Positions 21,025 to 38,771 of a DNA stretch of 64,000 bases are shown piece by piece. A program made the translations under genes and the position numbers. The stretch spans positions 1-64,000 of the forward strand of contig JAGUVW010000017.1 of the NCBI GenBank assembly GCA_020062665.1. The letters run 5' to 3'. The notes beneath the pieces were generated by a model that had not been told where the DNA came from, did not search any database, and worked only from the letters and a program-made list of their open reading frames with translations. Source of the stretch: Pseudomonadales bacterium (lineage in GTDB: Bacteria > Pseudomonadota > Gammaproteobacteria > Pseudomonadales > Ketobacteraceae). Every line of letters starts with the position of its first letter. Positions within the stretch are counted from its first letter, which is position 1.

Positions 21025-22578
21025 ATGCCTCAGATTATTAATACCAACATTTCTTCGATCAATGCGCAGCGTAACCTGAATAAATCACAGGGCGCATTGC
21101 AAACATCCCTTCAGCGGCTATCATCCGGCTTGCGTATCAATAGTGCGAAGGATGACGCCGCCGGTCTGGCGATTTCAAACCGCTTTACAACGCAGGTTAG
21201 AGGTTTGAACGTGGCCATTCGTAATGCGAATGACGGTGTCTCGCTCGCGCAAACCACCGAAAGTGCGCTGGATGAGATAACCACCGCATTGCAGCGTATT
21301 CGTGACCTTGCGGTGCAGTCTGCGAACGATTCAAACAGCGAGGCAGATCGTCTTTCGCTGCAGGCGGAAGTCGATCAGCTGAAGGATGAAATCAATCGCA
21401 TATCATCCACAACCACCTTCAACGGTCGTTATGTGCTGAATGGATCGCTGAAATCCTATTACTTCCAGATCGGTGCCAACGCCGGAGAGGGCGTGGAAGT
21501 CGGCGGTGTGGATGCACGTATTTCGGCTCTCGGTTCGCAGCCTGGTGCCGTTCAGTTGAGTTTCGATGATGGTAATGCTGCCGGTGCAAACCAGACTGCA
21601 CTGGAGATCCGTATTGGAACTTCGGCCAATGCAACGTCGGTGGATGTTCTGGCCAACGCTTATGGCGGTGCCATCACGGGTGCAACTGTCGGTGAGCTGA
21701 TTGATACCGAGTCAGATAATTTTGGATCTGGTTTCGCCAAGTCCCTGGCGGAACGCATCAACAATCTGCGTGTCGATGGGGTTGAAGGCCTTGGCGGTGT
21801 CTATGCCAGTGCGGTGACTACCTTCAATTACGAGGACGCTGGTGTGGCAGCGGCCAACGCAGCAGAGGCCTATGTAGGTGCCGGCTCTCTCAATCATGGT
21901 GACCTCGTGATCAATGGCGTCAATATTGGCCCGGTGGAAGTGCAGGAGCGGGATGCCAATGGTGCGCTGCTCAATGCCATCAATTCCCGCTCATCGGTAA
22001 CGGGTGTGGCTGCAAGTATCGACCAGAATGGCCGCCTTCTGCTGACAGCGGATGATGGTCGCGATATCGTTGTGACCACTACCAATAACTCGGCAGACAT
22101 CCTGTTCGGTGGTGGAAATGCTGAAGCACTTGCCCCGGCAGATTTTGCCAACAGCGTCAAAACCGGCCAGCTGACCATTTCTGCCCAGGACACCATCAAC
22201 TTTACTGAAACCGGTGCTCTGGCCAACGCTGACACCACTGATGACAACGTTCAGGCAGTAGGAACCATTGCCAACGCGGACATCACTTCAGTAGAGGCTG
22301 CCAATATCACCATGAAATCCATCGACAGTGCCTTGGCGCAGATTGATGGCTTCCGGGGTGAGCTGGGTGCGGTGCAGAACCGCTTTGAGTCCACCATTCG
22401 CAACCTGTCAGCCGTGGCGGAGAGTCTTTCTGCAGCCAACAGCCGGATTCGGGATGCGGACTTTGCTGCCGAGACCGCTGAACTGTCGAAGAATCAGGTA
22501 CTGCAGCAGGCGGGTATCTCGGTTCTGGCCCAGGCCAACGCACTGCCGCAGCAGGTTCTGAGTCTGCTGCAGGGCTAA
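21025..22578 (+). CDS. fliC1: Flagellin (first of two tandem copies)
   Basis: A 517-residue filament subunit. The conserved N-terminal D0/D1 region (INTNISSINAQRNL, SGLRINSAKDDAAGLAI) and C-terminal D1/D0 (RNLSAVAESLSAANSRI to the end PQQVLSLLQG) enclose a variable middle (about 170-410) rich in Asn, Thr, Ala and Asp. Several N-x-S/T triplets occur, for example NIS at residue 8, NGS at 139, NAT, NQT, NNS and NIT, relevant if the neighbouring GT41 enzyme is an N-glycosyltransferase. AGGAG lies ahead of the start. It is closely related to the next gene but is terminated separately. Confidence 0.95.
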   Translation: MPQIINTNISSINAQRNLNKSQGALQTSLQRLSSGLRINSAKDDAAGLAISNRFTTQVRGLNVAIRNANDGVSLAQTTESALDEITTALQRIRDLAVQSANDSNSEADRLSLQAEVDQLKDEINRISSTTTFNGRYVLNGSLKSYYFQIGANAGEGVEVGGVDARISALGSQPGAVQLSFDDGNAAGANQTALEIRIGTSANATSVDVLANAYGGAITGATVGELIDTESDNFGSGFAKSLAERINNLRVDGVEGLGGVYASAVTTFNYEDAGVAAANAAEAYVGAGSLNHGDLVINGVNIGPVEVQERDANGALLNAINSRSSVTGVAASIDQNGRLLLTADDGRDIVVTTTNNSADILFGGGNAEALAPADFANSVKTGQLTISAQDTINFTETGALANADTTDDNVQAVGTIANADITSVEAANITMKSIDSALAQIDGFRGELGAVQNRFESTIRNLSAVAESLSAANSRIRDADFAAETAELSKNQVLQQAGISVLAQANALPQQVLSLLQG

Positions 22579-23019: not shown

Positions 23020-24576
23020 ATGCCCCAGATTATCAATACCAACGTATCGTCGCTGAACGCGCAGCGTAACCTGAACAAGTCCCAGGGTGCACTGCAGACA
23101 TCACTGCAGCGTCTGTCTTCTGGTCTGCGCATCAACAGCGCCAAAGATGACGCCGCCGGTCTGGCGATTTCCAACCGCTTCACCACCCAGATCCGTGGCC
23201 TTGGTGTAGCGACCCGCAACGCCAACGACGGTATTTCCTTCGCCCAGACAACTGAATCTGCGCTGGACGAAATCACCACTGCCCTGCAGCGTATTCGCGA
23301 CCTGGCAGTACAGTCAGCCAACGATTCCAACAGCTCATCCGACCGTCAGTCCTTGCAGGCGGAAGTAGGTCAGCTGGTCTCTGAAATCAATCGGATTGCC
23401 GAAACCACCACGTTCAACGGTGCCCGCGTAGCGGATGGTTCGTTGAAGGCCTTGAACTTCCAGATCGGTGCCAACGCTGGTGAAACCGTTTCGGTTAAAG
23501 GTGTGGATGCCCGTGCATCTGCTCTGGGTTCTCAGCCGGGTGCCGTTCAGCTGACCTTCGACGATGGTAACGCTGCAGGTGCCAACCAGTCCGCCCTGGA
23601 AATCCGTATCGGTTCATCTGCGAACGCAACAGCGGTTGATGTCATGTCAGCTGCTAACGGTGGCAACATTACGGGTGCTACCGTAGCCCAGTTGACTGAT
23701 ACTGAAGATGACAACTATGGCACCGGTTTTGCCAAGTCTCTGGCTGAGCGTATCAACACCCTGCGGCAAAATGGTGTAGAAGGTTTGGAAGGCGTATATG
23801 CCACTGCCAAGACTACCTACAACTATGAAGATGCGGGCATTGCTTCTGCTAATGCGGCTGAAGCCTATGTCGGTGCCGGCACGCTGGAAAATGGTGACCT
23901 CACCATCAACGGTGTGGACATCGGGCCTGTTCAGGTTCAGGAGAAAGATGCCAATGGCGCCCTGACCAATGCCATCAATGCCAAGTCCAGCATTACAGGT
24001 GTTAAAGCAAGTATCGATGAAAGTGGACGTCTGGTACTGACTGCTGAGGATGGCCGCGATATCGTGGTATCGACTGCCGATGCTGACGCAGCTGATGTTC
24101 TGTTCGGTGGTGGTGATGCCGAAGCACTGGCTGCAGCTGACCTGACTGACTCAGTCAAGACAGGCAAGCTGACCATCTCTGCCCAGGACACCATCAACAT
24201 CGACACTAACACCGGTGGTGCAACCAACACCGACACTGATGATGACAACGTCCAGGCCGTGGGCACCATTGCCAACGCTGACATCACCACTGTGGAAGGC
24301 GCCAACATCACCATGAAGTCCATCGACAGCGCGCTGTCTCAGATCGACTCCTTCCGGGCAGATCTGGGTGCGATTCAGAACCGCTTTGAATCCACCATCC
24401 GCAACCTGTCGGCAGTATCGGAAAGCCTGGCAGCAGCCAACTCCCGGATCAAGGACGCAGATTTCGCTGCAGAAACAGCCGAACTGTCCAAGAACCAGGT
24501 GTTGCAACAGGCGGGTATCTCGGTGCTGGCTCAGGCCAATGCCCTGCCGCAGCAGGCTCTTTCACTGCTCGGCTAA
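23020..24576 (+). CDS. fliC2: Flagellin (second of two tandem copies)
   Basis: A 518-residue filament subunit, nearly identical to the first copy in the N-terminal 60 residues and the C-terminal 100, and similar in the middle, including the shared DDGNAAGANQSALEIRIG block. N-x-S/T triplets include NVS at residue 8, NDS, NSS, NQS, NAT, NIT and NLS; the NGS of the first copy is replaced by DGS. The ATG at 23020 has AGGAG about 7 bases ahead, better than the upstream in-frame Met at 22996. It has its own perfect FliA promoter and is likely the main late-class flagellin. Confidence 0.95.
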   Translation: MPQIINTNVSSLNAQRNLNKSQGALQTSLQRLSSGLRINSAKDDAAGLAISNRFTTQIRGLGVATRNANDGISFAQTTESALDEITTALQRIRDLAVQSANDSNSSSDRQSLQAEVGQLVSEINRIAETTTFNGARVADGSLKALNFQIGANAGETVSVKGVDARASALGSQPGAVQLTFDDGNAAGANQSALEIRIGSSANATAVDVMSAANGGNITGATVAQLTDTEDDNYGTGFAKSLAERINTLRQNGVEGLEGVYATAKTTYNYEDAGIASANAAEAYVGAGTLENGDLTINGVDIGPVQVQEKDANGALTNAINAKSSITGVKASIDESGRLVLTAEDGRDIVVSTADADAADVLFGGGDAEALAAADLTDSVKTGKLTISAQDTINIDTNTGGATNTDTDDDNVQAVGTIANADITTVEGANITMKSIDSALSQIDSFRADLGAIQNRFESTIRNLSAVSESLAAANSRIKDADFAAETAELSKNQVLQQAGISVLAQANALPQQALSLLG

Positions 24577-26721: not shown

Positions 26722-27141
26722 ATGAACATGTCAAAAGGCGCGCAGCAGTACGCAAAACTGAACAAGAGCACTGCTGTTGAGGAGGCGACTCCCCACCAGC
26801 TGATCCAAATGTTGTATCAGGGTGCGTTGGACAATCTGCAACAGTCCATCGGCCATATGGAGCGCAAAGACTACGAAGCCAAAGGCAATACCATTGGCCG
26901 GGCCATCAGCATTCTGGGCGGCTTGCAAGGTTTTCTGGATCACGAAAAAGGCGGCGATATCGCGCGTAACCTCGATAGCCTGTACGACTACATGATGATC
27001 CGGCTGTACGAAGCAACCCGTGAAAACAGCCAGCAGAAAGTCCAGGAAGTCATCGGATTGCTGAAGCAGATCAAATCTGGCTGGGACAGCATTGCTGAAG
27101 AAGCCAACAAACTCCATACCCAGCAGGGAAAGGGATCCTGA
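26722..27141 (+). CDS. fliS: Flagellin export chaperone FliS
   Basis: A 139-residue four-helix chaperone that binds the C-terminal helices of flagellin and keeps it unfolded for export. The pattern AKLNKSTAVEEATPHQLIQMLYQGALDNLQQSIGHM is the family N-terminus, and IGRAISILGGLQGFLDHEKGGDIARNLDSLYDYMMIRL the central block. Three bases separate it from the next gene. Confidence 0.94.
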   Translation: MNMSKGAQQYAKLNKSTAVEEATPHQLIQMLYQGALDNLQQSIGHMERKDYEAKGNTIGRAISILGGLQGFLDHEKGGDIARNLDSLYDYMMIRLYEATRENSQQKVQEVIGLLKQIKSGWDSIAEEANKLHTQQGKGS

Positions 27142-27144
27142 ATC

Positions 27145-27459
27145 ATGTTCGCGCAGGTGATCGACGGACTCAATGCCAGATTGAAGCAAGCCATTGCCGC
27201 TGGTGACTATGAGGAAGTTCGTCTGGTCGATCTGGCGTGCGTGAGGTTCATGAATGAAAACCTGCCGCCGCCACCCGGAACCGATGCGGCGGAACTGCAG
27301 GCGGTGATGGATAGCCTCGCGCGACTCAGTGCCACCTATGGCGAGGCCAGGGACAACTGCACTGCTGCCCGCAACGATCTTCAGCAGGCGCTGCAAACGG
27401 CCGGGCACAACCGTCGCAACACCATGCGATATCTTGACGTGGCGCGCAATCTGGGCTGA
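27145..27459 (+). CDS. FliT-like export chaperone (hypothetical)
   Basis: A 104-residue, wholly helical, acidic-basic protein that follows fliS by 3 bases, the standard place for fliT. Sequence similarity to FliT is not obvious by eye. What can be seen are a first helix (NARLKQAIAAGDYEEVRLVDLACVRF), a Pro-rich turn (PPPPGT) and two further helices ending in a basic segment. A chaperone role for FliD is inferred from position. Confidence 0.6.
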   Translation: MFAQVIDGLNARLKQAIAAGDYEEVRLVDLACVRFMNENLPPPPGTDAAELQAVMDSLARLSATYGEARDNCTAARNDLQQALQTAGHNRRNTMRYLDVARNLG

Positions 27460-27489
27460 ATGCCCCGGCTGCGGCCAGAGGTAAATGAT

Positions 27490-28692
27490 ATGTCCCTTCA
27501 GCCTGTTTCCCTCCCGTACCTCATTCCCGACATGCCGCCGGCTGAAGAAGTAGTGCCTTTTCTGCGGGAGATTGATGGCAATCGCTGGTACACCAATTTC
27601 GGCCCCCTTGCCACCCGACTGAACGATCAGATTCTGCGTACCCATTTCACGGATGACCGTGTGAAGCTTCTGCTGTGCAGCACGGGAACTGCCGCGTTGG
27701 AACTGGGCCTGGCAGCCCTGGGCCTGAAGCCGGGGGCGCGGGTACTTGTGCCGGCATTTACTTTTCCCGCATCGGCAAATGCCATCCAGAACTGCGGGTT
27801 TGAGCCGGTTTTCTGCGACGTGGATGAAAACAGCTGGGTGATGACACCCGACATCGCGCTGGAAGCCGTGTCGAGAGCAAATATAGATGCCGTCATGCCG
27901 GTGGCTGCGCTTGGGCGCCCATTGTCCGCGTCGCAGTGGGATCGCTTTTTTGAAAAAACCGGACTGCCGGTGTTGATCGATGCGGCGGCGGCGCTTGGCA
28001 ATCAGGAAGTGGGCCGACATATTTTGGTAGCGTTCAGCATGCACGCCACCAAGGCATTTGGTATTGGTGAAGGTGGCTTGCTCGCCTGCCAGAATGATAA
28101 CGTGATTGCCCGTGCGCGACGCATCTGCAATTTTGGTATGGATGCGCGGGGCCAGGTGGTGGGTCATGGTACCAATGCCAAATTGAGTGAGTATCATGCA
28201 GCGGTTGGGTTGGCGCAGATCGCCCGCTGGCCTGCACGGCAGCTGAAACGTGCGCGGGTTGACGCCAGCTATCAGGCCCAGATGAAAACGTGTAGCCATC
28301 TTTGGGTTTCACAATCGTTCACAGACAACGAGTCACTTGGCGAGAAAGTGCTGATTCCCCTGCCGGTGCGTCATAACCGCTCCACCATGCCGGTCCGCCT
28401 GCACGCGGGCATCCGCGTCAGTGTTCAGTCAGTCCAGGAACAGCTCGCTGCACAGGGTATTGGCACACGGCTTTGGTACAATCCTGGCCTTCATCGGCAT
28501 CCACATTGGGTGGCCTGTGCCCAGGTCTGTCGCGCGGGTGAATCGACCCTTGTCACCGTAGACAGGCTCAACGACCGTCTTATTGGATTGCCTTTCCACA
28601 ACTTTCTAACCCCCCAGGACATTACGTTCATCGTCGGCAATTTGCGCCAAATAGTTGAAAACAAGGAATATTCTGCTTCACTTAGCCAATAA
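27490..28692 (+). CDS. DegT/DnrJ/EryC1 family PLP-dependent sugar aminotransferase
   Basis: A 400-residue aminotransferase of the nucleotide-sugar type. The internal-aldimine Lys is Lys188 in SMHATKAFGIGEGG, preceded by LLCSTGTAALELGLAALGL (PLP phosphate site) and VPAFTFPASANAI. Such enzymes usually transaminate a 4-keto or 3-keto nucleotide sugar. ATG 27490 was chosen because AGAGG (27477-27481) is spaced 8 bases from it; ATG 27460 overlaps the preceding stop without a good site. First gene of the accessory island. With rfbA nearby, a dTDP-amino-dideoxy sugar is a reasonable guess, as in viosamine on Pseudomonas flagellin, but the substrate is not shown. Confidence 0.85.
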   Translation: MSLQPVSLPYLIPDMPPAEEVVPFLREIDGNRWYTNFGPLATRLNDQILRTHFTDDRVKLLLCSTGTAALELGLAALGLKPGARVLVPAFTFPASANAIQNCGFEPVFCDVDENSWVMTPDIALEAVSRANIDAVMPVAALGRPLSASQWDRFFEKTGLPVLIDAAAALGNQEVGRHILVAFSMHATKAFGIGEGGLLACQNDNVIARARRICNFGMDARGQVVGHGTNAKLSEYHAAVGLAQIARWPARQLKRARVDASYQAQMKTCSHLWVSQSFTDNESLGEKVLIPLPVRHNRSTMPVRLHAGIRVSVQSVQEQLAAQGIGTRLWYNPGLHRHPHWVACAQVCRAGESTLVTVDRLNDRLIGLPFHNFLTPQDITFIVGNLRQIVENKEYSASLSQ

Positions 28693-28717: not shown

Positions 28718-30583
28718 ATGAGCAACGACGATCCGCTGAAGAATGTGGACGCGCTGACGGTTCTACGACTGTTCGAAACCGACGTGACGCGCAGGCGCTA
28801 CAAACAGGCGGAAGAATGCCTCCTTTGGCTGCTGTCCAATTGCTCTGTGCATTCAGCCCAGCCCAACAAAGTCATCCTGCCCACCTATGACGAACGTGAA
28901 GTTACCTATGTGGCAACCCGTATCGCCAGCGGTGTTTGCCAGATGTTCAGCGACCCCGCTTTTGGTGTGGAAGACAGCGACTTCTACAAATTCGCCATTG
29001 GGCACGGCAGCCTGAAAGCTCTGCTTGAAGTGTCTGGCTTCGGGAACGCTGATCATGTCATCCAGAACCTGCTGGAACCAGTAGAGGCGCAGAAGACAGA
29101 GATCGTTTCCCGCCAGACCTTCAACAAGGTTCTGTTGCTGCACGGCATTCATTCAGAGATCAAGATCCCGTTCGAGCAGTATCTCCAGAGTCATCCGCGA
29201 CACATTCTGTGGATGGTGCTGCTGTCAGTCGCGACGCTGTTCTGTGTCACTGAGCGGGAGAATGCTGCACGGGACAAGCTGATCTCATCGATGATGCATG
29301 ATCTGGACGTGACGGCATTCGAGCCATCAATGCTGGGATGGTTATGTATTGGCTGGATGCACTGCAGCTACGCCACCATTGCCGAGCGCAACTATTTCAA
29401 GAAGACGCTCAACAGGATGCTGGTGCACTGGATGAAGCGCATTGGCGTTGAGCAGAATCAGGTGCAGAAGAAAAAGCAAAGCAGGAACAAGCCGGTTTTG
29501 CTGGTGGTCAACGAGTACTTCAAATCCGGGCATGCGATGTATCGATGCTATGCGCCGACCATCAAGGCGCTGCGAACGCATTTCCATGTTATTGGCATGA
29601 CCGAAAAGAAGGATTGCGATGAGAACTCAATAAAGTGCTTCGACGAGCACCACTATCTGGAATGGAGTGAGGAAATCGGCGGATCGCTCAAGCGAGCGAT
29701 CAAAGCCATCAAGGACATTCGGCCGGATGCGATTTATTATCCCAGCGTGGGCATGCACATATCGGCCATTCTGCTTGCCAATATCCGCCTGGCGCCGTGT
29801 CAGTTCATGAGTATGGGGCATCCGGCGAGTTCGCATTCAGACGTGATGGACTACTGTCTGGTGGAAGATCAGTTTGTGGCAGATCCAACGCAGTTTTCGG
29901 AAAAACTGTTTTCTCTCGAGCACAATGCAAGCAGTTTTGTACCGCATATCAATCAACCGCCCCGAAGTGAAATGCTCGAATGGAAGGAACCTCGACAAGC
30001 AGGGGAACCTGTAAGAGTTATCATCACGGGCTCCTCCATGAAGATCAATGCAGGGTTCATCAGTGTCCTGGCAGAGATTGCGGACAAGACCACCCGGGAA
30101 GTTGAATATCATTTCATACCGAATCTGAACAACCTTTCCCTCAGCCTGTTCCGGAAAAAGATCGCGCAAAAGCTGAAGCGCTTCGTGGTACATCCATCCA
30201 TGAACTATCCCCAGTATCTGCGCAAGGTGGCTCACTGCCATATTCACCTGAGTCCGTTCCCCTTTGGCAGTACCAATAGTCTGGTTGATTCCATGCTGCT
30301 GGGATTGCCGCTGGTGGTGATGCGGGTGCGGGACAGTGAGCTGCAGATCGATGCCGGCATCATTGATAAGTTGAATATCGATGCGCTCCGTCCCGCTGAA
30401 ACCGTGGAAGAATATATTGCAACGGCTTGTCGGCTTATTGATGACGATGATGAGCGCAGGCGTTTGACGGCGTTGCTGGAGGAAAAAGATATAGAAGGGA
30501 CATTCTTCGGTGATTGCGCCGATGCCCTCGAGCGATCTGCAGCCGGCATTCTGGAAATGGTTCTGAATCACCCATGTGCGTAA
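28718..30583 (+). CDS. GT41/HMW1C-like cytoplasmic glycosyltransferase, putative flagellin glycosyltransferase
   Basis: A 621-residue protein with an all-helical N-terminal region (about 1-245), a basic linker (KKKQSRNK) and a GT-B domain (about 260-600). The GT domain shows MGHPASSHSDVMDYCLVEDQF and, at residues 513-524, PFPFGSTNSLVD followed by a GLPLVV strand. These resemble HMW1C-type enzymes of family GT41, which put hexoses on Asn in N-x-S/T in the cytoplasm or extend them. No signal peptide or membrane helix is evident. It is the only recognisable glycosyltransferase in the island and lies 1.3 kb after fliS, so flagellin is the obvious acceptor. Family membership is judged by motif; acceptor and linkage are inference. 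An O-linked OGT-like activity is the main alternative. Confidence 0.72.
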   Translation: MSNDDPLKNVDALTVLRLFETDVTRRRYKQAEECLLWLLSNCSVHSAQPNKVILPTYDEREVTYVATRIASGVCQMFSDPAFGVEDSDFYKFAIGHGSLKALLEVSGFGNADHVIQNLLEPVEAQKTEIVSRQTFNKVLLLHGIHSEIKIPFEQYLQSHPRHILWMVLLSVATLFCVTERENAARDKLISSMMHDLDVTAFEPSMLGWLCIGWMHCSYATIAERNYFKKTLNRMLVHWMKRIGVEQNQVQKKKQSRNKPVLLVVNEYFKSGHAMYRCYAPTIKALRTHFHVIGMTEKKDCDENSIKCFDEHHYLEWSEEIGGSLKRAIKAIKDIRPDAIYYPSVGMHISAILLANIRLAPCQFMSMGHPASSHSDVMDYCLVEDQFVADPTQFSEKLFSLEHNASSFVPHINQPPRSEMLEWKEPRQAGEPVRVIITGSSMKINAGFISVLAEIADKTTREVEYHFIPNLNNLSLSLFRKKIAQKLKRFVVHPSMNYPQYLRKVAHCHIHLSPFPFGSTNSLVDSMLLGLPLVVMRVRDSELQIDAGIIDKLNIDALRPAETVEEYIATACRLIDDDDERRRLTALLEEKDIEGTFFGDCADALERSAAGILEMVLNHPCA

Positions 30584-30612: not shown

Positions 30613-31761
30613 ATGTCAGACAGGACGGTCGAAAACAGGAATGCTTCGCAAGTCAGGCTGCTGGTGTTCCCGCTGGATATTGATAAAGCCAAAGAGGTTA
30701 TCGCGTTTGCGCGGTCGCTTGATCTGGAGGTTGTCGGCGCCAGCTCGGTCATGCGGGAATCGGAAGCAGGACGCTATCCAGTGGTGTCGTTCCATCGCTT
30801 GCCCTTTGTTACTGATGCGGCGTTCGAGCAGGCGTTTCTGACACTGGTTGAGGCGGAAAGGATTACCCATGTCTTTACGCCTCATGGTGTTATCTGGTCG
30901 CACCTGATGCAGTGTCAGGAGTCATACCCCGATCGTTTCCAGTTTCATCTCTGGCAGCCATCGCCCTATGAAGAGGATTGGCTGGCGCTGGCGCCCAGTC
31001 GTGAGTGGGCTGATCAGATGCTGACAGAAAAATTCGCCAATGCATTGCCGGATGACGTGAAACTGAAGGCACCGCTGCGGCGAGGACAACTGGTCAGTCT
31101 GCACCGTCGTTTCCTCGATATTCCCGGCCAATCCGACGAATGCAAGCTGATGATGTTGGCGCACATCGCGCGTCTGTTGCCTGTCGGCGATCTGGTGGAA
31201 GTGGGTTCATTTCAGGGGCGTTCAGCGTTTGCCATTGGCTGGCTGGCCAGCCACTACCAGATCGGCAATCTGGTCTGTATCGATCCCTGGGATCTCAAAA
31301 AGATCGAGCATCAAGGTGAAAAGGCACATCTTGCAACTCAGGAATTGCGCCGGGGCAGGGATTTCATCGATCTGGATAAGATTTTTCAGAGTTTTATTGC
31401 GGCGGTCGCATTGCTGGGCAATGTAGGTTACATCCGTGACATATCGGAGGCTGCCATTCATGTCTATCGCGATGCTGCTGCCCGCGGGCGTTTGCCCGCC
31501 AACGAATTGGACAGCCTGCCTCTGTCTGGGCAGATTGCCATGTTGCACATAGACGGCAACCATCGTTATGACTTTGTGCGCAAGGATGTGGATTTGTGGT
31601 TGCCCCACGTGATGGATGGAGGTTGGGTGCTGCTGGACGACTACGTGTGGGCATTCGGCGATGGGCCCAAACGGGTGGGTGATGAATTGCTGGGATCGGA
31701 ACAATTCGATCTGGCGTTCACCGCGAGCGACACGCTGTTTTTGCGCAAGAGGAAGACCTGA
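30613..31761 (+). CDS. Fusion of a pre-ATP-grasp-like domain to a class I SAM methyltransferase
   Basis: A 382-residue protein. Residues about 13-115 look like the Rossmann-type pre-ATP-grasp domain (LLVFPLDIDKAKEVIAFARSLDLEVVGAS, then an ITHVFTPHG strand). Residues about 175-380 are a methyltransferase of the Methyltransf_24 kind, with the SAM loop LVEVGSFQGRSAFAIG (Glu196), VCIDPWD, LHIDGNHRYDFVRKDVDLWLP and GGWVLLDDY. The stop lies one base before the ATP-grasp gene, which suggests joint action. A role in methylating or acylating a sugar before or after transfer to flagellin is inferred. Confidence 0.68.
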   Translation: MSDRTVENRNASQVRLLVFPLDIDKAKEVIAFARSLDLEVVGASSVMRESEAGRYPVVSFHRLPFVTDAAFEQAFLTLVEAERITHVFTPHGVIWSHLMQCQESYPDRFQFHLWQPSPYEEDWLALAPSREWADQMLTEKFANALPDDVKLKAPLRRGQLVSLHRRFLDIPGQSDECKLMMLAHIARLLPVGDLVEVGSFQGRSAFAIGWLASHYQIGNLVCIDPWDLKKIEHQGEKAHLATQELRRGRDFIDLDKIFQSFIAAVALLGNVGYIRDISEAAIHVYRDAAARGRLPANELDSLPLSGQIAMLHIDGNHRYDFVRKDVDLWLPHVMDGGWVLLDDYVWAFGDGPKRVGDELLGSEQFDLAFTASDTLFLRKRKT

Positions 31762-31762
31762 G

Positions 31763-32911
31763 ATGGCCAAGGTTTTGCTGGTTGATACCAATCTGGCTGC
31801 CTGGCCGATTCACCAGGCACTGGTTGCGCAGGGCCATGAAGTTTTTGTGGTGGGAGGTAATCCGCAGGATTATCTTGCCAATGCCTCGCCAAACTACATC
31901 TGCCAGGACTACGCGGATCGCAGGCGGATGGGTGTGCTACTTGAAGAGCTCGGGATTGATCACCTGGTGCCGGGTTGTAACGATTTTTCCTATACAGTTT
32001 GTGCGGATCTGAACGAGCAGTTCGGGTTCAGCGGAATCGACTCGGTTGTCAACACGCAGATCATCAATAACAAGGAACAGTTTCGCCGCTTTGCTCTGGC
32101 GAATTCCATTCCGGTACCCGCCGTGTTTTCGGTGGAGCAGGCGCTTGATTTCCTGCCAGTCATTGTCAAGCCGGTCGATTCCTATAGCGGTCGCGGTGTT
32201 ACTGTAATCCGCGACAGAAACACGGCGGCCTTGGCACAGGCGATCCATGCCGCTGAAGCCCAGTCCCGTAGCGGTCAGTATCTGGTGGAGCAGTACATAG
32301 AGGGCCAGCTGCTAAGCCATTCCGCGTTCCTGCGCGGGGAAAAAATATTACTGGATTTCTTTGTTGAAGAGCAGTGCATTGCCAGCCCTTTTGCCGTGGA
32401 CACCAGCAAGGTGGTGGCAGATCTGAGTGATACGGTCAGGGCGAAAGTTCGCAGCGCAATCGAGTCGATGGCTCAACTGCTGGGACTGGCAGATGGACTG
32501 GTTCACACCCAGTTCATTCTGCAAGGAGACGCTATCTGGATCGTGGAAGTGACACGTCGTTGCCCTGGTGATCTCTATAGCCTGTTGATTGAGTATTCGA
32601 CCGGTTACGCATATGCCCAGATGTATGCCAGTCCGTTTTTGGGAATACCGTTGTCCGTAGCGGGAATTTCAGGGGAACGTTTCATCGTTCGGCATACCGT
32701 GACCGTACCGCAGGAAACCCGTTTCACAGCCGTCGCTTTCAAACGTGCTGTGAGCCTGGCGGGATATTTTTCATTGGCGCGGTCGGGTGAGTTGATGGCG
32801 AAGGCGCCTCTCGGCAGGATTGGCATCTTTTTTACCGAATCACCCAACAGACAAGACCAACAATCCATCTACGACGATCTAGTACGGCGAACACTGTATG
32901 CCATCCGATAA
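31763..32911 (+). CDS. ATP-grasp family ligase
   Basis: A 382-residue ATP-grasp protein. It has a pre-ATP-grasp N-domain (VLLVDTNLAAWPIHQALVAQGHEVFVVGG), the nucleotide-binding strands VIVKPVDSYSGRGVTVI and YLVEQYIEGQLLSHSAF, and a metal-site segment WIVEVTRRCPGDLYSLLIEY. Such enzymes join a carboxylate to an amine or thiol through an acyl phosphate, so this one could couple an amino acid or other acid to an amino sugar made by the DegT enzyme. ATG 31763 was chosen because the family's N-domain begins there, one base after the previous stop. Its end overlaps the FkbM gene by 14 bases. Confidence 0.82.
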   Translation: MAKVLLVDTNLAAWPIHQALVAQGHEVFVVGGNPQDYLANASPNYICQDYADRRRMGVLLEELGIDHLVPGCNDFSYTVCADLNEQFGFSGIDSVVNTQIINNKEQFRRFALANSIPVPAVFSVEQALDFLPVIVKPVDSYSGRGVTVIRDRNTAALAQAIHAAEAQSRSGQYLVEQYIEGQLLSHSAFLRGEKILLDFFVEEQCIASPFAVDTSKVVADLSDTVRAKVRSAIESMAQLLGLADGLVHTQFILQGDAIWIVEVTRRCPGDLYSLLIEYSTGYAYAQMYASPFLGIPLSVAGISGERFIVRHTVTVPQETRFTAVAFKRAVSLAGYFSLARSGELMAKAPLGRIGIFFTESPNRQDQQSIYDDLVRRTLYAIR

Positions 32912-34034
32912 TGCCGGTGATGTGATGTCGCTTCCCCAGAGTGGCGAAGACTTTGTGAAGTGTGTGCAATCTGCTTTGCAAGCGGAGAGTCGCGGCCTGG
33001 ATTTGGCGAAGCAGTTCCTGGATGAGCGCATCGCTATTCCGCGCTACCTCATTGGCCGAAATGAAGATGCCCGATCGCTGCAGAAACTGATTGCAATCAA
33101 CGGTGTGATTGATGACTTCAGTCACGTTCAGATGGATGAGCAGGGGACTCCGATCGTCAAAAGCAGCGAGCTGCCGGAGGATGCCTGGGTTATCAACTGC
33201 TCGACCTCTATCAGTCCGGTCAATGTCAACAAGCGCCTTGCGTCATTGGCGTTGCAGCACTGCCTGGGCATCAACCAGATTGTTCTGGCGTCCGATGGCA
33301 AGCTGGCCTGGCCCTGGTTCGTCCGCGATCAGCGCAACTGTATTGAGCGTCGGCTTTCGGAATGGGCAGCGCTCTATGACAGACTGGCTGATGCAGAATC
33401 ACGTCAGACGCTGCTCGACGTTGTGCGTTACCGACTGACAGCCGACGCTGGGTATATGCAGAACTACTCGGTGCGCATCCAGGAGCAGTACTTTGAGGAC
33501 TTCATGGCCTATTCCCGCGAGCTTTTCGTGGATGCGGGTGGGTTTGATGGCGACACCACTGAAGCATTCTGTCAACGCTATGCTGATTATCAGCGTGTCT
33601 ATTTGTTCGAGCCTTCGGCGCAGAATATGCAGGCTGCTCAGAAGCGGTTGCACGCCTGCCGCGATATCGACTATCGGCAGGCTGCCCTTTCTGATCGGGA
33701 AGAATGGCTTGAGTTCGATGCGACGGCCGGATCTGCATCGTCGGTGTCGCAAGGCGCAGCGGAAAAAGTCAGGGCATGTCGGCTTGATGATGTAGTGAAC
33801 GGAGATGTGACTTTTATCAAGATGGATCTTGAAGGCTGGGAAATGAAAGCGCTTGCCGGGGCGGAACGATTGATTCGCTCGAACCGGTGCAAGCTGGCGA
33901 TCTCCGTCTATCACCGGGCGGATGATTTTCTGGATGTGCCGCGATTTCTGCTCGGACTCAACCCCGATTACCGGATCTATCTGCGTCATTACACGCAGGG
34001 ATGGTCTGAAACCATCATGTATTTCAGGATGTGA
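32898..34034 (+). CDS. FkbM family SAM-dependent methyltransferase
   Basis: A 378-residue protein whose C-terminal part (about 205-370) is an FkbM methyltransferase: ELFVDAGGFDGDTTEAF as SAM loop, VYLFEPSAQNM, and the catalytic-region strand VTFIKMDLEGWEMKALAGAE. The first 200 residues are an extra domain that I do not recognise; it includes SSELPEDAWVINCSTSISPVNVNKRL and may bind a sugar nucleotide or partner. FkbM enzymes O-methylate sugars and polyketides. ATG 32925 is an alternative start, 9 codons later. Confidence 0.8.
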   Translation: MPSDNAGDVMSLPQSGEDFVKCVQSALQAESRGLDLAKQFLDERIAIPRYLIGRNEDARSLQKLIAINGVIDDFSHVQMDEQGTPIVKSSELPEDAWVINCSTSISPVNVNKRLASLALQHCLGINQIVLASDGKLAWPWFVRDQRNCIERRLSEWAALYDRLADAESRQTLLDVVRYRLTADAGYMQNYSVRIQEQYFEDFMAYSRELFVDAGGFDGDTTEAFCQRYADYQRVYLFEPSAQNMQAAQKRLHACRDIDYRQAALSDREEWLEFDATAGSASSVSQGAAEKVRACRLDDVVNGDVTFIKMDLEGWEMKALAGAERLIRSNRCKLAISVYHRADDFLDVPRFLLGLNPDYRIYLRHYTQGWSETIMYFRM

Positions 34035-34075
34035 AGGTGTTGCCAGTGCTGGCGGCAGCTCCTCATGGAGGCGTT

Positions 34076-35200
34076 ATGAATTTGCATCAGGAACCACTCC
34101 AGGTTGCATTTGTGGGTGGCGGTGTTCACTCTGCCGTTGGATACGCCCATTTCAATGCCAGTCGCCTGGATGGTCACTTTCGGCTTGTGGCCGGCTGCTT
34201 CAGTCGCGATGCTGCTCATAATCAGCTGTCGGCCTCGACATACGGAATTGATCAGGAAAAAACGTACCCTACCTGGCAGGCATTGCTGGAAGCAGAGGCG
34301 GGAAAGCTGGACGCGATTATTGTGCTGACGCCAACGCCCAGTCACGCGGACATCGTATTGAGTGCGGTGAAAGCCGGCTACCCGGTGATATGTGAGAAGG
34401 CCTTGGGCATGTCGAGCGATGAATGTTTTCAGATTGAAAAGGCTCGGCAGGATCGTCAAGGGTATCTCGCGGTGACGTTCAATTACTCCGGCTATCCCAT
34501 GGTGCGCGAATTGCGACGCATGATCAGGGCAGGAAAGCTGGGAAAACTTCAGCAGGTGCACATTGAAATGCCGCAGGAGGGATATCTGCGTCTGGGTGCC
34601 AATCCCCAGAGCTGGCGGCGCAGCGATTACGACATCCCCACCGTGTCACTGGATCTTGGTGTTCATGTGCATCATCTGGTGGATTTTATTACCGATGGCA
34701 AGAAGCCTCTCAGCGTTGTGGGCGATCAGGCCCGCTACGGTCAGTTTGATGGGGTGATTGACAATGTCTACTGCATGGCTCACTACGAGGACGATATCCG
34801 CATGGTGAGCTGGTGGGGCAAGTCTGCGTTGGGCTATCGCAACGGATTACGAATCCGCGTTTACGGAAGCGAGGGCGGTGCCGAGTGGTATCAGATGGAA
34901 CCGGAGGTGCTGCGTTTCTCTGACAATCAGGGTTGCACTCAAATCCTGGATCGGGGCGCTGCCGCAGCAGGGCTTGCACTGGAGCTGCGCTATAACCGTT
35001 TCAAGGCGGGACACCCGTCAGGTTTTATCGAAGCCTTTGCAAATCTGTATGCGGACATTGCATCAGACCTACGCCAGTCCCGCTTGGGGCAGCCTCGTTC
35101 GAACGAATTCGTGTATGGTGCGCTGGAAGCAGCCAGGGGAATGAGTTTTCTGGAACGGGTCTCTGTGTCCGCCGCTCGCCGGGAATGGCTGAGTCTCTGA
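34076..35200 (+). CDS. Gfo/Idh/MocA family NAD(P)-dependent oxidoreductase
   Basis: A 374-residue oxidoreductase. The N-terminal Rossmann fold starts VAFVGGGVHSAVGYAHF, followed by DAIIVLTPTPSHADIVLSAVKAGYPVICEKALG, where E-K is the family's catalytic Lys region. The C-terminal domain has SLDLGVHVHHLVDFI, with the His/Asp pair usual for substrate oxidation. Probably dehydrogenates or reduces a (nucleotide-)sugar. ATG 34076 has GGAGG (34067-34071) just ahead, so it is better than the GTG at 34031. Last plus-strand gene of the island. Confidence 0.85.
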   Translation: MNLHQEPLQVAFVGGGVHSAVGYAHFNASRLDGHFRLVAGCFSRDAAHNQLSASTYGIDQEKTYPTWQALLEAEAGKLDAIIVLTPTPSHADIVLSAVKAGYPVICEKALGMSSDECFQIEKARQDRQGYLAVTFNYSGYPMVRELRRMIRAGKLGKLQQVHIEMPQEGYLRLGANPQSWRRSDYDIPTVSLDLGVHVHHLVDFITDGKKPLSVVGDQARYGQFDGVIDNVYCMAHYEDDIRMVSWWGKSALGYRNGLRIRVYGSEGGAEWYQMEPEVLRFSDNQGCTQILDRGAAAAGLALELRYNRFKAGHPSGFIEAFANLYADIASDLRQSRLGQPRSNEFVYGALEAARGMSFLERVSVSAARREWLSL

Positions 35201-35240: not shown

Positions 35241-36113
35241 TCAATCAAATTTCCGCTGCAGTTTCAGGTCGAGTTCTGGTGGAAATGGCTCCTTGTTCCA
35301 CTCCATTCTGCTCCAGTCGAAAGGACACCGTTCAGCGAGGCTGTCGAGATCAGCGTCCAGTTCGCCGACGCTATTCACCAGCGGGAATCCAAGCTGGGTC
35401 GGCATCAGGCGTGCGAACAGGTGGCTCGACGGCCACAGAATGGCGGATGCCCACCGGTGTGGTGACTCCCAGCCGGATTTGTCAGCACTGCCTCTGCCTT
35501 CACGCCCCTCTGGTTGCTCAAAGATGTAGTGCCGCCATTGGCTGTCGCGCAGTATGGATCGATATACTTTGATCAAGTCGGGTTTCGCGCTGCTTCTATC
35601 CAGTCTGCCCCAGTTTGCGCAGTATTCGACGTTATCCAGAATGACAACGGAATTGACCTGATGCTGATGTATCGTGCTGAGCAGTTCCTTGCGTGCAATA
35701 CCATCGTTCACGATGAAGTCCCACCGCTCGGCCGTTACCAGATGGGACACGTCGGCATATTCTTTTGCCTTGATGATCACCAGATCATGGTGCGCTACCA
35801 GCTCCAGGCTGAAGCTTTCCGCGCTGACGCTGGCTGTCTTGAAACCGATGTTTGTGGCTGCAGAGGCGATGAAGTCGATGTAGCGATCATCGCTTTCGAT
35901 GGTGACGACTCGTGATCCTTTGCCGAGCAGATACAGTGTTGAATTGCCGCCGCCGAATTCCAGTGTGACGGGCGGGGCGGTCAGGGTGGCGGGCAGCCAC
36001 TTGAAGACGTTGTTGAGAAAGGTCGAGCAGTCATCCGTCCACCAAGGTACCACGCGCAATCTGAACGGGTGAGCATTGTCAGTGATGGACGGTGCATTCT
36101 GGTCGTGGGTCAT
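35241..36113 (-). CDS. Class I SAM methyltransferase-like protein
   Basis: A 290-residue soluble protein. The segment VTLEFGGGNSTLYLLGKGSRVVTIESD resembles a methyltransferase glycine loop followed by the acidic SAM-ribose strand, and WDFIVNDGIARKELL and VVILDNVEYC are the later strands. No close family can be named. It lies 69 bases after rfbA in the same direction and converges on the main part of the island, so it may modify the same glycan. Confidence 0.62.
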   Translation of the reverse strand: MTHDQNAPSITDNAHPFRLRVVPWWTDDCSTFLNNVFKWLPATLTAPPVTLEFGGGNSTLYLLGKGSRVVTIESDDRYIDFIASAATNIGFKTASVSAESFSLELVAHHDLVIIKAKEYADVSHLVTAERWDFIVNDGIARKELLSTIHQHQVNSVVILDNVEYCANWGRLDRSSAKPDLIKVYRSILRDSQWRHYIFEQPEGREGRGSADKSGWESPHRWASAILWPSSHLFARLMPTQLGFPLVNSVGELDADLDSLAERCPFDWSRMEWNKEPFPPELDLKLQRKFD

Positions 36114-36182: not shown

Positions 36183-37076
36183 CTATCGGGCATCAAAGCG
36201 GCGGTTTTCATCCAGAATCCTGCGCAGATACTTGCCATAGCCGCTTTTTTCCAGCGGGGCAATCAACTGCTCCAGCTGATCGTCATCGATGTATCCCATC
36301 AGGTAGCTGATTTCTTCCGGGCAGCAGATCTTCAGGGACTGTCTGTCTTCGATCAGTTTGATGAAGTTGGCGGCATCCAGCAGCGCATCGTGGGTGCCGG
36401 TATCGAGCCAGGCAGTGCCGCGCCCGAACAGTTCCACCTTCAGATCACCTCTGTTCAGGTAGGCGTTGATGATGTCGGTGATTTCCAGTTCGCCGCGGGG
36501 TGAAGGCTTGACGTTGCGGGCGATGTCCACGACGTCCTGGTCGAAGAAGTAAATGCCAGTGACCGCGTAAGAGGATTTTGGCGTGCTCGGTTTTTCTTCG
36601 ATGCTGGTGACATTGCCGGCGCGGTCGAAGCCCAGAACGCCGTAGCGTTGTGGATCACGGACATAGTAGCCAAATATGGTGGCGCCACGTTCCCGCCGGG
36701 TGGCGTTCTGCAGCTGCATGGAAAGGCCTGAACCGTAGAAAATATTGTCTCCCAGCACCAGGCAGGCGTTGCTTCCGGCCAGAAAAGTCTCGCCGATCAG
36801 AAACGCCTGCGCCAGGCCGTCCGGGCTGGGCTGCTCTGCATAGTGAAATGACATGCCCCACTGGGAGCCGTCGCCCAGTAGATGCTGGAAGGCCACACTG
36901 TCCCGCGGCGTGGTAATGATGAGAACGTCGCGAATCCCGGCCAGCATCAATGTTGAAACCGGGTAATAGATCATCGGCTTGTCATAGACCGGCATCAGCT
37001 GCTTGCTGACGCTGGAGGTTAGCGGATGAAGGCGGGTTCCTGTGCCACCCGCCAGAACGATTCCTTTGTAGTGCAT
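36183..37076 (-). CDS. rfbA: Glucose-1-phosphate thymidylyltransferase RfbA
   Basis: A 297-residue nucleotidyltransferase, full length for RfbA/RmlA. It makes dTDP-glucose from dTTP and glucose-1-phosphate. Seen: [16 protein letters not shown] (nucleotide loop with the key Arg), [47 protein letters not shown] and [20 protein letters not shown]. The ATG at 37076 gives the family N-terminus; the frame is open further upstream. It is divergent from fleQ. rfbB, rfbC and rfbD are absent, so it probably feeds the island's aminotransferase pathway, with the dehydratase elsewhere. Confidence 0.95.
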
Positions 37077-37139
37077 CGCGCGACGAGTATCTCTTATAAC
37101 AATCCAGAACGAATATGGGCGATCCATATAAAGGTAGAA

Positions 37140-37156
37140 GACATCGGCTCGATGTC
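37140..37156. promoter_or_regulatory. Perfect dyad GACATCG-3-CGATGTC between rfbA and fleQ
   Basis: GACATCG (37140-37146), GCT, CGATGTC (37150-37156), 64 bases from the rfbA start on its upstream side. A candidate operator or leader hairpin of rfbA. Confidence 0.45.
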
Positions 37157-37206
37157 CAGTCATAAAACCCGCGCCCAGCTGACGGTTACACCAAACCTGA
37201 CTCGAT

Positions 37207-37240
37207 TTGGTCAAAAATATCACGCCAACAATTTGACCAA
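37207..37240. promoter_or_regulatory. Inverted repeat TTGGTCAAA-16-TTTGACCAA upstream of fleQ
   Basis: A perfect 9-bp dyad (37207-37215 and 37232-37240) with a 16-base spacer. The half-sites contain GTCAA/TTGAC, like those reported for FleQ boxes in Pseudomonas. The right half covers the -35 of the fleQ promoter candidate. Confidence 0.55.
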
Positions 37241-37262
37241 CCCAGGGTTCCCTGACTTTACT
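37233..37262 (+). promoter_or_regulatory. Candidate sigma-70 promoter of fleQ
   Basis: TTGACC (37233-37238), 18 bases, TTTACT (37257-37262). The -35 is a good match and the -10 is moderate. fleQ is sigma-70-dependent in Pseudomonas. The start codon would be about 70 bases after the transcription start. Confidence 0.45.
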
Positions 37263-37340
37263 GATAGGTACTCCAAACAAAAGCGTCAAATACCAATCAT
37301 GAACGGGGAGTGGCGGGAATCCGCCAACGGCAAACTCAAC

Positions 37341-38771
37341 ATGTGGCGAGAAGTACAGGTTTTACTGATTGATGATAACCAGAGCCGCCGGCATGACATG
37401 AAAGTCATTCTGGATTTTGTCGGCGAGGCCACGTTCGCATCTGGCTCTGCCGACTGGCGTCAGGTCGTGGGTGAAACGCCGGGCGAGCATTTCGCCTGTG
37501 CGTTCATTGGTGCCGTGCCCGATCTGGGGCGGTTGATGAAAGAATTGCTGGATTGGGAAAAGACGCTGCCACTGGTACTGGTGAACGGCAATGGCGCCGC
37601 GGGTGACGACGACGAGGAAACCGAGCGTGCAGTCATTGCCCAGATTGAAACACCTCCGTTGTACACCAAGCTGATGGATACGCTGCATCGTGCTCAGGTG
37701 TATCGCGATCAGGTGTCGGCAGATCCGGTGCGTGCCCATCGTCGCGAAGCCCAGTTGTTCCGCAGCCTGGTGGGTACCAGCCGCTCCGTGGTGAAAGTGC
37801 GTGAGCTGATGGCACAGGTGGCCGACAAGGATGTGAGCGTGCTCATTACCGGCGAATCTGGCACCGGAAAGGAAGTGGTGTCCCGCAACCTGCACTATCA
37901 TTCCCACCGGCGCCACAAGCCCTTCGTTCCCGTCAATTGCGGCGCGATTCCGCAGGAACTGCTGGAAAGCGAGCTGTTCGGGCATGAAAAAGGTGCGTTT
38001 ACCGGCGCCATCACCAGCCGGCCAGGCCGCTTCGAGCTGGCGCAGGGCGGCACCATTTTCCTTGATGAAATCGGCGATATGCCGTTGCACATGCAGGTGA
38101 AGCTGCTGCGCGTGTTGCAGGAAAAAACCTACGAGCGCGTCGGTGGCACCAAGACCATGGAAGCCGATGTCAGGGTGATCGCTGCCACACACCAGAATCT
38201 GGAAAAGCTGATCGAGGAAGGCAAATTCCGCGAAGATCTTTACTACCGGATCAACGTGTTTCCCATCGAGATGCCGCCACTGCGGGAGCGCACTGAAGAT
38301 ATCCCTCTGCTGCTGAATGAACTGGTGGCCCGCATCGAGAACGAAAAGCGTGGCTCCATCCGCTTCAACTCCGCTGCGATCATGGCGCTGTGCCGGCACG
38401 AGTGGCCGGGCAACGTCCGTGAGCTGGCGAATCTGGTGGAGCGCTTGGTCATCACTCACCCCTATGGCGTGATCGGCGTATCAGATTTGCCCAAGCGCTT
38501 TCGTCATGTGGATGATCTGGATGAAGAACGGGAGTTGCCGGAAGAAGTGGCCGCGCCCGCCGGCCCAGGCTATGTCAGCATGGATGCCCCGGCGCTGCTG
38601 CCGGTGAATGGCATCGATCTGAAAGAGTATCTGAACAATCTGGAATACAACCTGATCAAGCAGGCGCTGGATGATTGCAATGGCGTGGTGGCCAGGGCTG
38701 CCGAGAAGCTGAAGATACGGCGAACGACCCTGGTGGAGAAAATGCGCAAGTTTGATTTGAACCGGGTGTAA
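37341..38771 (+). CDS. fleQ: Flagellar master regulator FleQ (sigma-54 enhancer-binding protein)
   Basis: A 476-residue regulator. It starts [17 protein letters not shown], the FleQ-type receiver-like domain (about 1-125), which has no phosphorylatable Asp where CheY has one. LFRS (Arg141) and SRN (Arg182-Asn183) match the c-di-GMP-binding residues known in Pseudomonas FleQ. The AAA+ domain has Walker A GESGTGKE at 171-178 and GAFTGA at 218-223, needed for sigma-54 contact. A Fis-type helix-turn-helix lies at the C-terminus ([20 protein letters not shown]). ATG 37341 was chosen because the conserved N-terminus begins there. It should activate fleSR and early basal-body genes, and act with c-di-GMP. 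Confidence 0.93.

Follow-up and report, generated by a model that had tools for sequence, protein, structure and literature searches.

A glycosyltransferase of the HMW1C-like branch of GT41 in a flagellar gene cluster of a Ketobacteraceae bacterium lacks the sequon-reading residues of N-glycosyltransferases

The window analysed here is a stretch of 64,000 nt from contig JAGUVW010000017.1 of a member of the Ketobacteraceae (Pseudomonadales). It includes a flagellar region with the gene order flgL, fliC1, fliC2, flaG, fliD, fliS and a fliT-like gene, continuing with genes for a DegT-type aminotransferase, a GT41 glycosyltransferase, a methyltransferase, an ATP-grasp protein, an FkbM-family protein and a Gfo/Idh-type oxidoreductase, then a methyltransferase-like gene and rmlA on the minus strand, and finally fleQ, fleS and fleR. 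Except for FliC, FliS and FliT, the flagellar gene names are based on resemblance and position. Two flagellins, the proposed substrates, are specified on the plus strand: FliC1 (nt 21025–22578) and FliC2 (nt 23020–24576), both matching PF00669 and PF00700. A third, divergent flagellin-like ORF, an open frame of 821 aa, is found elsewhere in the same genome (G000:C87:15028-17484).

The modification island is bordered upstream by the fliS and fliT-like chaperone genes (nt 26722–27459, plus strand; FliS, PF02561, 8.6e-39; FliT, a weak match) and downstream by the fleQ-like regulator gene (nt 37026–38771, plus strand), which was recognised by position and by homology between relatives. Its plus-strand genes begin with the DegT-type sugar aminotransferase (nt 27460–28692; PF01041, 2e-61) and the GT41 gene (nt 28718–30583), and go on to a methyltransferase of the Methyltransf_24 family with an extra N-terminal part (nt 30613–31761), an ATP-grasp ligase (nt 31616–32911, with the real start likely near nt 31763) that is possibly an N-acyl ligase for an amino-sugar, an FkbM-family methyltransferase (nt 32898–34034; TIGR01444, 3.9e-21) and a sugar oxidoreductase of the Gfo/Idh/MocA family (nt 34031–35200; Pfam and NCBIfam). 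The minus strand carries a class-I methyltransferase-like gene (nt 35241–36113), which returned no Pfam or NCBIfam match but has the motif EFGGGNST when inspected by eye, and the gene for RmlA, glucose-1-phosphate thymidylyltransferase (nt 36183–37289, the real start lying inside this frame; TIGR01207, 474 bits, cut-off 361). The GT41 protein is the only glycosyltransferase of the island recognisable by Pfam and NCBIfam. A scan for promoters and terminators returned nothing above chance worth using.

The GT41 gene (plus strand) is single-copy in its genome, starts with ATG preceded by GAGGAA, and encodes a protein of 621 aa with an HMW1C-like architecture, i.e., an all-alpha domain (AAD) joined to a GT-B domain. 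The motifs cited in the original prediction are present, MGHPASSHSD at residues 366–375 and PFPFGSTN at residues 513–520, and contain the family-conserved residues H368 and N520, respectively. The helical N-terminal half described there corresponds to the HMW1C_N domain (PF18071, 40 bits, cut-off 27) and is all-alpha to about residue 241 in the predicted model. Glyco_transf_41 was matched below its cut-off. The NCBIfam family NGTferase (NF049992) matched residues 17–600 (E = 2.2e-88), and while the score of 297 bits misses the equivalog cut-off of 1000 bits, this alone decides nothing, as proteins of 634–694 bits that carry the sequon-reading residues discussed below miss it too. The nearest PDB sequences are ApNGT and AaNGT (E about 1e-68 to 1e-64; 25–27% identity), the best listed match being 3q3e (phmmer, 1.5e-68), with O-GlcNAc transferases (OGTs) far behind. 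An AlphaFold2 model built with 20 homologues (mean pLDDT 88, pTM 0.89) aligned with AaNGT over 599 residues, the N-terminal AAD included (VIA Z 46.7, 2.5 A), whereas comparisons with OGT and SPINDLY gave Z values of 25–35 over 424–488 residues, ruling out OGT as the nearest fold. There was no Pfam match to TPR repeats, and the N-terminal part aligns instead to the AAD of NGTs. Profile, PDB matches and fold agree with the predicted family: the protein is a full-length HMW1C/NGT-type GT41. With OGT and SPINDLY it shares the GT-B domain and, by proposal, an alpha-phosphate base chemistry (PMC10507012), but not the TPR domain.

The residues that bind the donor and those that read the acceptor sequon have fared differently. 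Two residues of the N-terminal domain, Arg177 and Asp215, bind the Thr at position +2 of the sequon in AaNGT, and Arg177 together with His214 binds the Thr at +3; the R177A and D215A variants are each inactive, and according to the authors both residues are conserved among NGTs (PMC10507012). An alignment of the window GT41, AaNGT and ApNGT, anchored by an ungapped MHCSY block and an F-x-x-T motif, places Leu174 (nt 29237–29239, plus strand) at Arg177 and Cys210-Ile211 (nt 29345–29350, plus strand) at His214-Asp215, and phmmer gives the same pairings. The donor site is conserved, including His272 (nt 29531–29533; AaNGT His276, a donor sugar contact), Lys442 (nt 30041–30043; AaNGT Lys440, pyrophosphate) and Asn520 to Asp524 (nt 30275–30289; AaNGT Asn520 and Asp524, pyrophosphate and ribose), all on the plus strand. 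These four residues are identical in the eight flagellar homologues described below, and the larger AaNGT set of His276, Arg280, His370, Lys440, Tyr500, Asn520 and Asp524 is kept across the nine flagellar enzymes (Arg276 and His368 in the window protein being the counterparts of Arg280 and His370). An exception at the nucleotide end is the pair His494 and Ser495, which hold the uracil in AaNGT (PMC10507012) and align with Ser and Met in the window GT41. The Arg-His-Asp (R-H-D) set is missing from all nine flagellar enzymes, which have L, Q, N or T at the first position, C, G or P at the second, and I, V, S, P or N at the third. As the Arg177/Asp215 dyad is absent, classical attachment at N-x-S/T by this enzyme appears unlikely from the alignment.

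The distribution of the R-H-D set divides the HMW1C-like proteins. It is kept in all 16 members of one clade (the NGT clade), comprising 14 rows of the tree (support 100/100) and two plasmid-borne betaproteobacterial members added later, and since the rows are related, the pattern is a clade difference and does not reflect many independent events. None of these 16 genes lies beside a flagellin gene; one (L105) follows a gene for a 1746-aa adhesin-like protein and two (L110 and L111) adjoin a ShlB transporter gene. The wider set lacking R-H-D is found partly in flagellin islands together with an aminotransferase. The unrooted tree groups eight of the flagellar enzymes in one clade (100/99) and leaves the ninth (L021, from genome G084) as a long branch of unsure position. 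When the tree was rooted with OGT-type sequences, the dyad clade was nested within dyad-less ones (95/100), a hint that the dyad was gained once and not lost in the flagellar enzymes, although the backbone is weak and a short outgroup row (L010) falls inside. As the dyad characterises a single sub-clade within the family, the step taken in the original prediction, from HMW1C-like motifs to glucosylation of Asn in N-x-S/T, fails, and fold alone is not sufficient to name HMW1C-like proteins N-glycosyltransferases.

Among 116 relatives, full-length GT41 homologues were found in eight other genomes, at identities of 71% (G006), 51% (G001), 27–32% (five genomes) and 25% (G084, from another family). 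In all eight the gene is located in the flagellar locus, after flagellin or fliS genes and mostly before fleQ. The smallest island (G002) consists of the DegT and GT41 genes alone between fliS/fliT and fleQ. The corresponding interval has no such genes in three GT-less genomes of genus g4 (G008, G010 and G014), and in two others of that genus (G004 and G012) it holds TPR, glycosyltransferase-8, sulfotransferase, capsule or methyltransferase genes; such varied contents mark the slot as a flagellin-modification hot spot. In the congener G001, two more GT41 proteins, both of the OGT type and one with TPR, are encoded downstream of the HMW1C-like gene (L071:6223-9649).

A segment of the exposed flagellin domain follows the presence of the GT41 gene. 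This loop, residues 178–225 (nt 21556–21699 in FliC1 and nt 23551–23694 in FliC2, plus strand), is 53–85% identical between the flagellins of G006, a member of genus g4, and those of GT-bearing genus g1, whereas G006 and its GT-less congeners share 35% identity on average. In its flagellin core, FliD, FliS and FleQ, G006 is as near or nearer to these congeners than to g1. The loop thus tracks the GT41 gene and not species kinship, as would be expected had enzyme and acceptor been transferred together or adapted to each other, short of proof. It includes an inserted Ser200 that every clade-1 flagellin has (six sequences, from the three nearest GT-bearing genomes), while only one of ten flagellins from GT-less genomes has S/T there. 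Given the conserved synteny, the lack of any other recognisable glycosyltransferase in the island and the covariation of the loop, flagellin is the probable substrate of the window GT41, as had been proposed.

The N-x-S/T triplets of the flagellins were also found at the predicted positions (NIS8/NVS8, NGS139 in FliC1, NAT202 in both, NIT427/429), but the statement that many lie in the exposed middle was too generous. The middle domains contain four in FliC1 (3.6 ± 1.6 expected from shuffling) and three in FliC2 (3.1 ± 1.5 expected), and sequon enrichment was dropped as evidence of targeting because the counts equal those of the shuffles. The sequons at positions 8, 19, 101, about 427 and about 460 fall within or at the conserved flagellin core, and recur in ten flagellins from five relatives without the GT41 gene. 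With sequons at chance level, and the core ones common to GT-less flagellins, sequon targeting gains no support. No middle sequon is general to both flagellar GT clades; NAT202, within the loop, is general in clade 1 only (6/6 flagellins), and the aligned site reads NGT in four of the ten GT-less flagellins. Asn itself makes up 7.7% and 7.1% of the flagellin middles in GT-bearing genomes versus 5.5%, N184 and N392 are Asn columns restricted to GT-bearing flagellins, and position 202 is Asn in all six clade-1 sequences.

Regarding the donor, DegT genes accompany 15 of 20 dyad-less GT41 genes, adjacent or nearby, as against one of 14 dyad-bearing loci. The best NCBIfam match of the window DegT is DesI, far below cut-off, and PF01041 gives no confident substrate. 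RmlB scored above cut-off in all nine GT-bearing genomes, but it is present in three of five GT-less relatives as well, and was therefore dropped as a marker of GT-bearing genomes. The DegT pairing, the presence of RmlA and RmlB and the replacement of the uracil-site residues are most simply read as pointing to a dTDP-4-amino-4,6-dideoxyhexose, which is probably the donor.

Taken as a whole, these features make it rather probable that the window GT41 is a flagellin glycosyltransferase of the HMW1C-like branch that is blind to the sequon and probably O-linking. It would be a soluble cytoplasmic enzyme of the AAD-containing part of GT41, supplied by RmlA, RmlB and the adjacent DegT protein with the dTDP-4-amino-4,6-dideoxyhexose, the sugar of which the ATP-grasp, methyltransferase and oxidoreductase gene products may acylate, methylate or oxidise. 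The nucleotide sugar would be held in the GT-B cleft by the conserved His/Lys/Asn/Asp set, and the sugar transferred with inversion onto the variable, surface-exposed middle of both flagellins before their FliS-assisted export. N-x-S/T would go unread, and local shape instead of a sequon would select the acceptor, probably Ser/Thr given the absent dyad and the analogy with other bacterial flagellins.

Asn could still be the nucleophile, since catalysis by AaNGT needs no protein base (PMC10507012), and the enzyme might then glycosylate flagellin at Asn independently of any sequon. The GT-specific columns N184 and N392, the invariant N202 of clade 1 and the somewhat higher Asn content would accord with this, but the excess of Asn is small and phylogeny may account for it, and no bacterial precedent was found in the literature searched; we regard it as unlikely. 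A shade more doubtful is the proposal that the dyad-less branch links the 4-amino-4,6-dideoxyhexose, modified or not, directly to flagellin Asn without a sequon; if true, this would be an N-linked route for bacterial flagellin with a new mode of acceptor choice. That the enzyme is a classical NGT glucosylating Asn within flagellin N-x-S/T is quite improbable: the HMW1C fold and donor residues are kept and NAT202 sits inside the covarying loop of clade 1, but the readers of position +2 that are essential in AaNGT are Leu and Ile, sequon numbers are at chance, four of ten GT-less flagellins have a sequon at the site aligned with NAT202, and the second flagellar clade shares no middle sequon. It is very improbable that the GT41 extends a sugar placed on flagellin by another glycosyltransferase and is not itself protein-linking, as it is the sole recognisable glycosyltransferase both here and in G002 with its two-gene island, even if the island of G001 offers two further GT41 proteins. 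Finally, synthesis of another surface glycan, with flagellin nearby by chance, might be imagined from the three TPS (ShlB) transporters encoded elsewhere in the genome and from the DegT and dyad-less GT41 pairs of L101, L106 and L107, which have no flagellin genes within the fetched stretch, but is extremely improbable with the flagellar placement kept in nine genomes, down to GT identities of about 25%, and a flagellin loop that tracks the gene.

A sequon-blind enzyme acting on flagellin would resemble known systems in part. According to a review, flagellin glycosylation takes place in the cytoplasm, its genes are linked to those of flagellin, and no sequon is known for the Maf enzymes (PMC12645811). 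Like ApNGT and AaNGT (GT41, NF049992, PF18071), the window protein has the full-length fold, the all-alpha N-terminal domain and the donor-binding residues, but its gene accompanies flagellin and DegT genes and not those of an adhesin or TPS transporter. GT41 proteins have likewise been reported from flagellin islands of Enterobacteriaceae that also encode DegT aminotransferases and FkbM methyltransferases (De Maayer and Cowan 2016, PMC4875605). They are described as SPINDLY/O-GlcNAc-transferase enzymes, most of them carrying a methyltransferase domain, and by that description differ from the unfused, HMW1C-type window protein. The viosamine island of Pseudomonas syringae (VioA, VioB, VioM and VioT) similarly combines a dTDP-4-amino-4,6-dideoxyglucose aminotransferase with a methyltransferase and acyl modification in making a flagellin glycan; in that glycan the Ser-linked sugar is rhamnose, attached by Fgt1, and viosamine is the outer sugar, added by VioT (PMC3927599), whereas the window has one GT41 only, with an ATP-grasp gene in place of the acyl-carrier route. 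Archaea are known to N-glycosylate flagellins (PMC2952790, PMC4336324). The literature searched, which left most subscription journals outside, yielded no paper placing an HMW1C-type enzyme in a flagellar locus and none describing N-linked glycosylation of bacterial flagellin via an NGT. With one glycosyltransferase, one aminotransferase, two flagellins and island-free relatives as controls, the locus is a small, testable system for studying acceptor choice by a cytoplasmic GT41 and the possibility of Asn-linked glycans on bacterial flagellin.

Three other HMW1C-like loci show unusual features. One protein (L109, from G837) exceeds the NGT equivalog cut-off at 1084 bits and retains R-H-D, but Lys440, Asn520 and Asp524 of AaNGT are replaced in it by Gln, Ser and Glu, so this copy may be inactive or altered. 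In a lake MAG (L023:6758-13954), the gene of an R-H-D-bearing glycosyltransferase has rmlB, rmlA and a DegT aminotransferase gene in its vicinity; its product is possibly a classical NGT with an amino-sugar donor. At L031:4928-11752, a dyad-less GT41 gene lies downstream of genes for a PapD-like chaperone and a protein of 1091 aa that contains an SdrD_B-like domain, and this locus is perhaps fimbrial.
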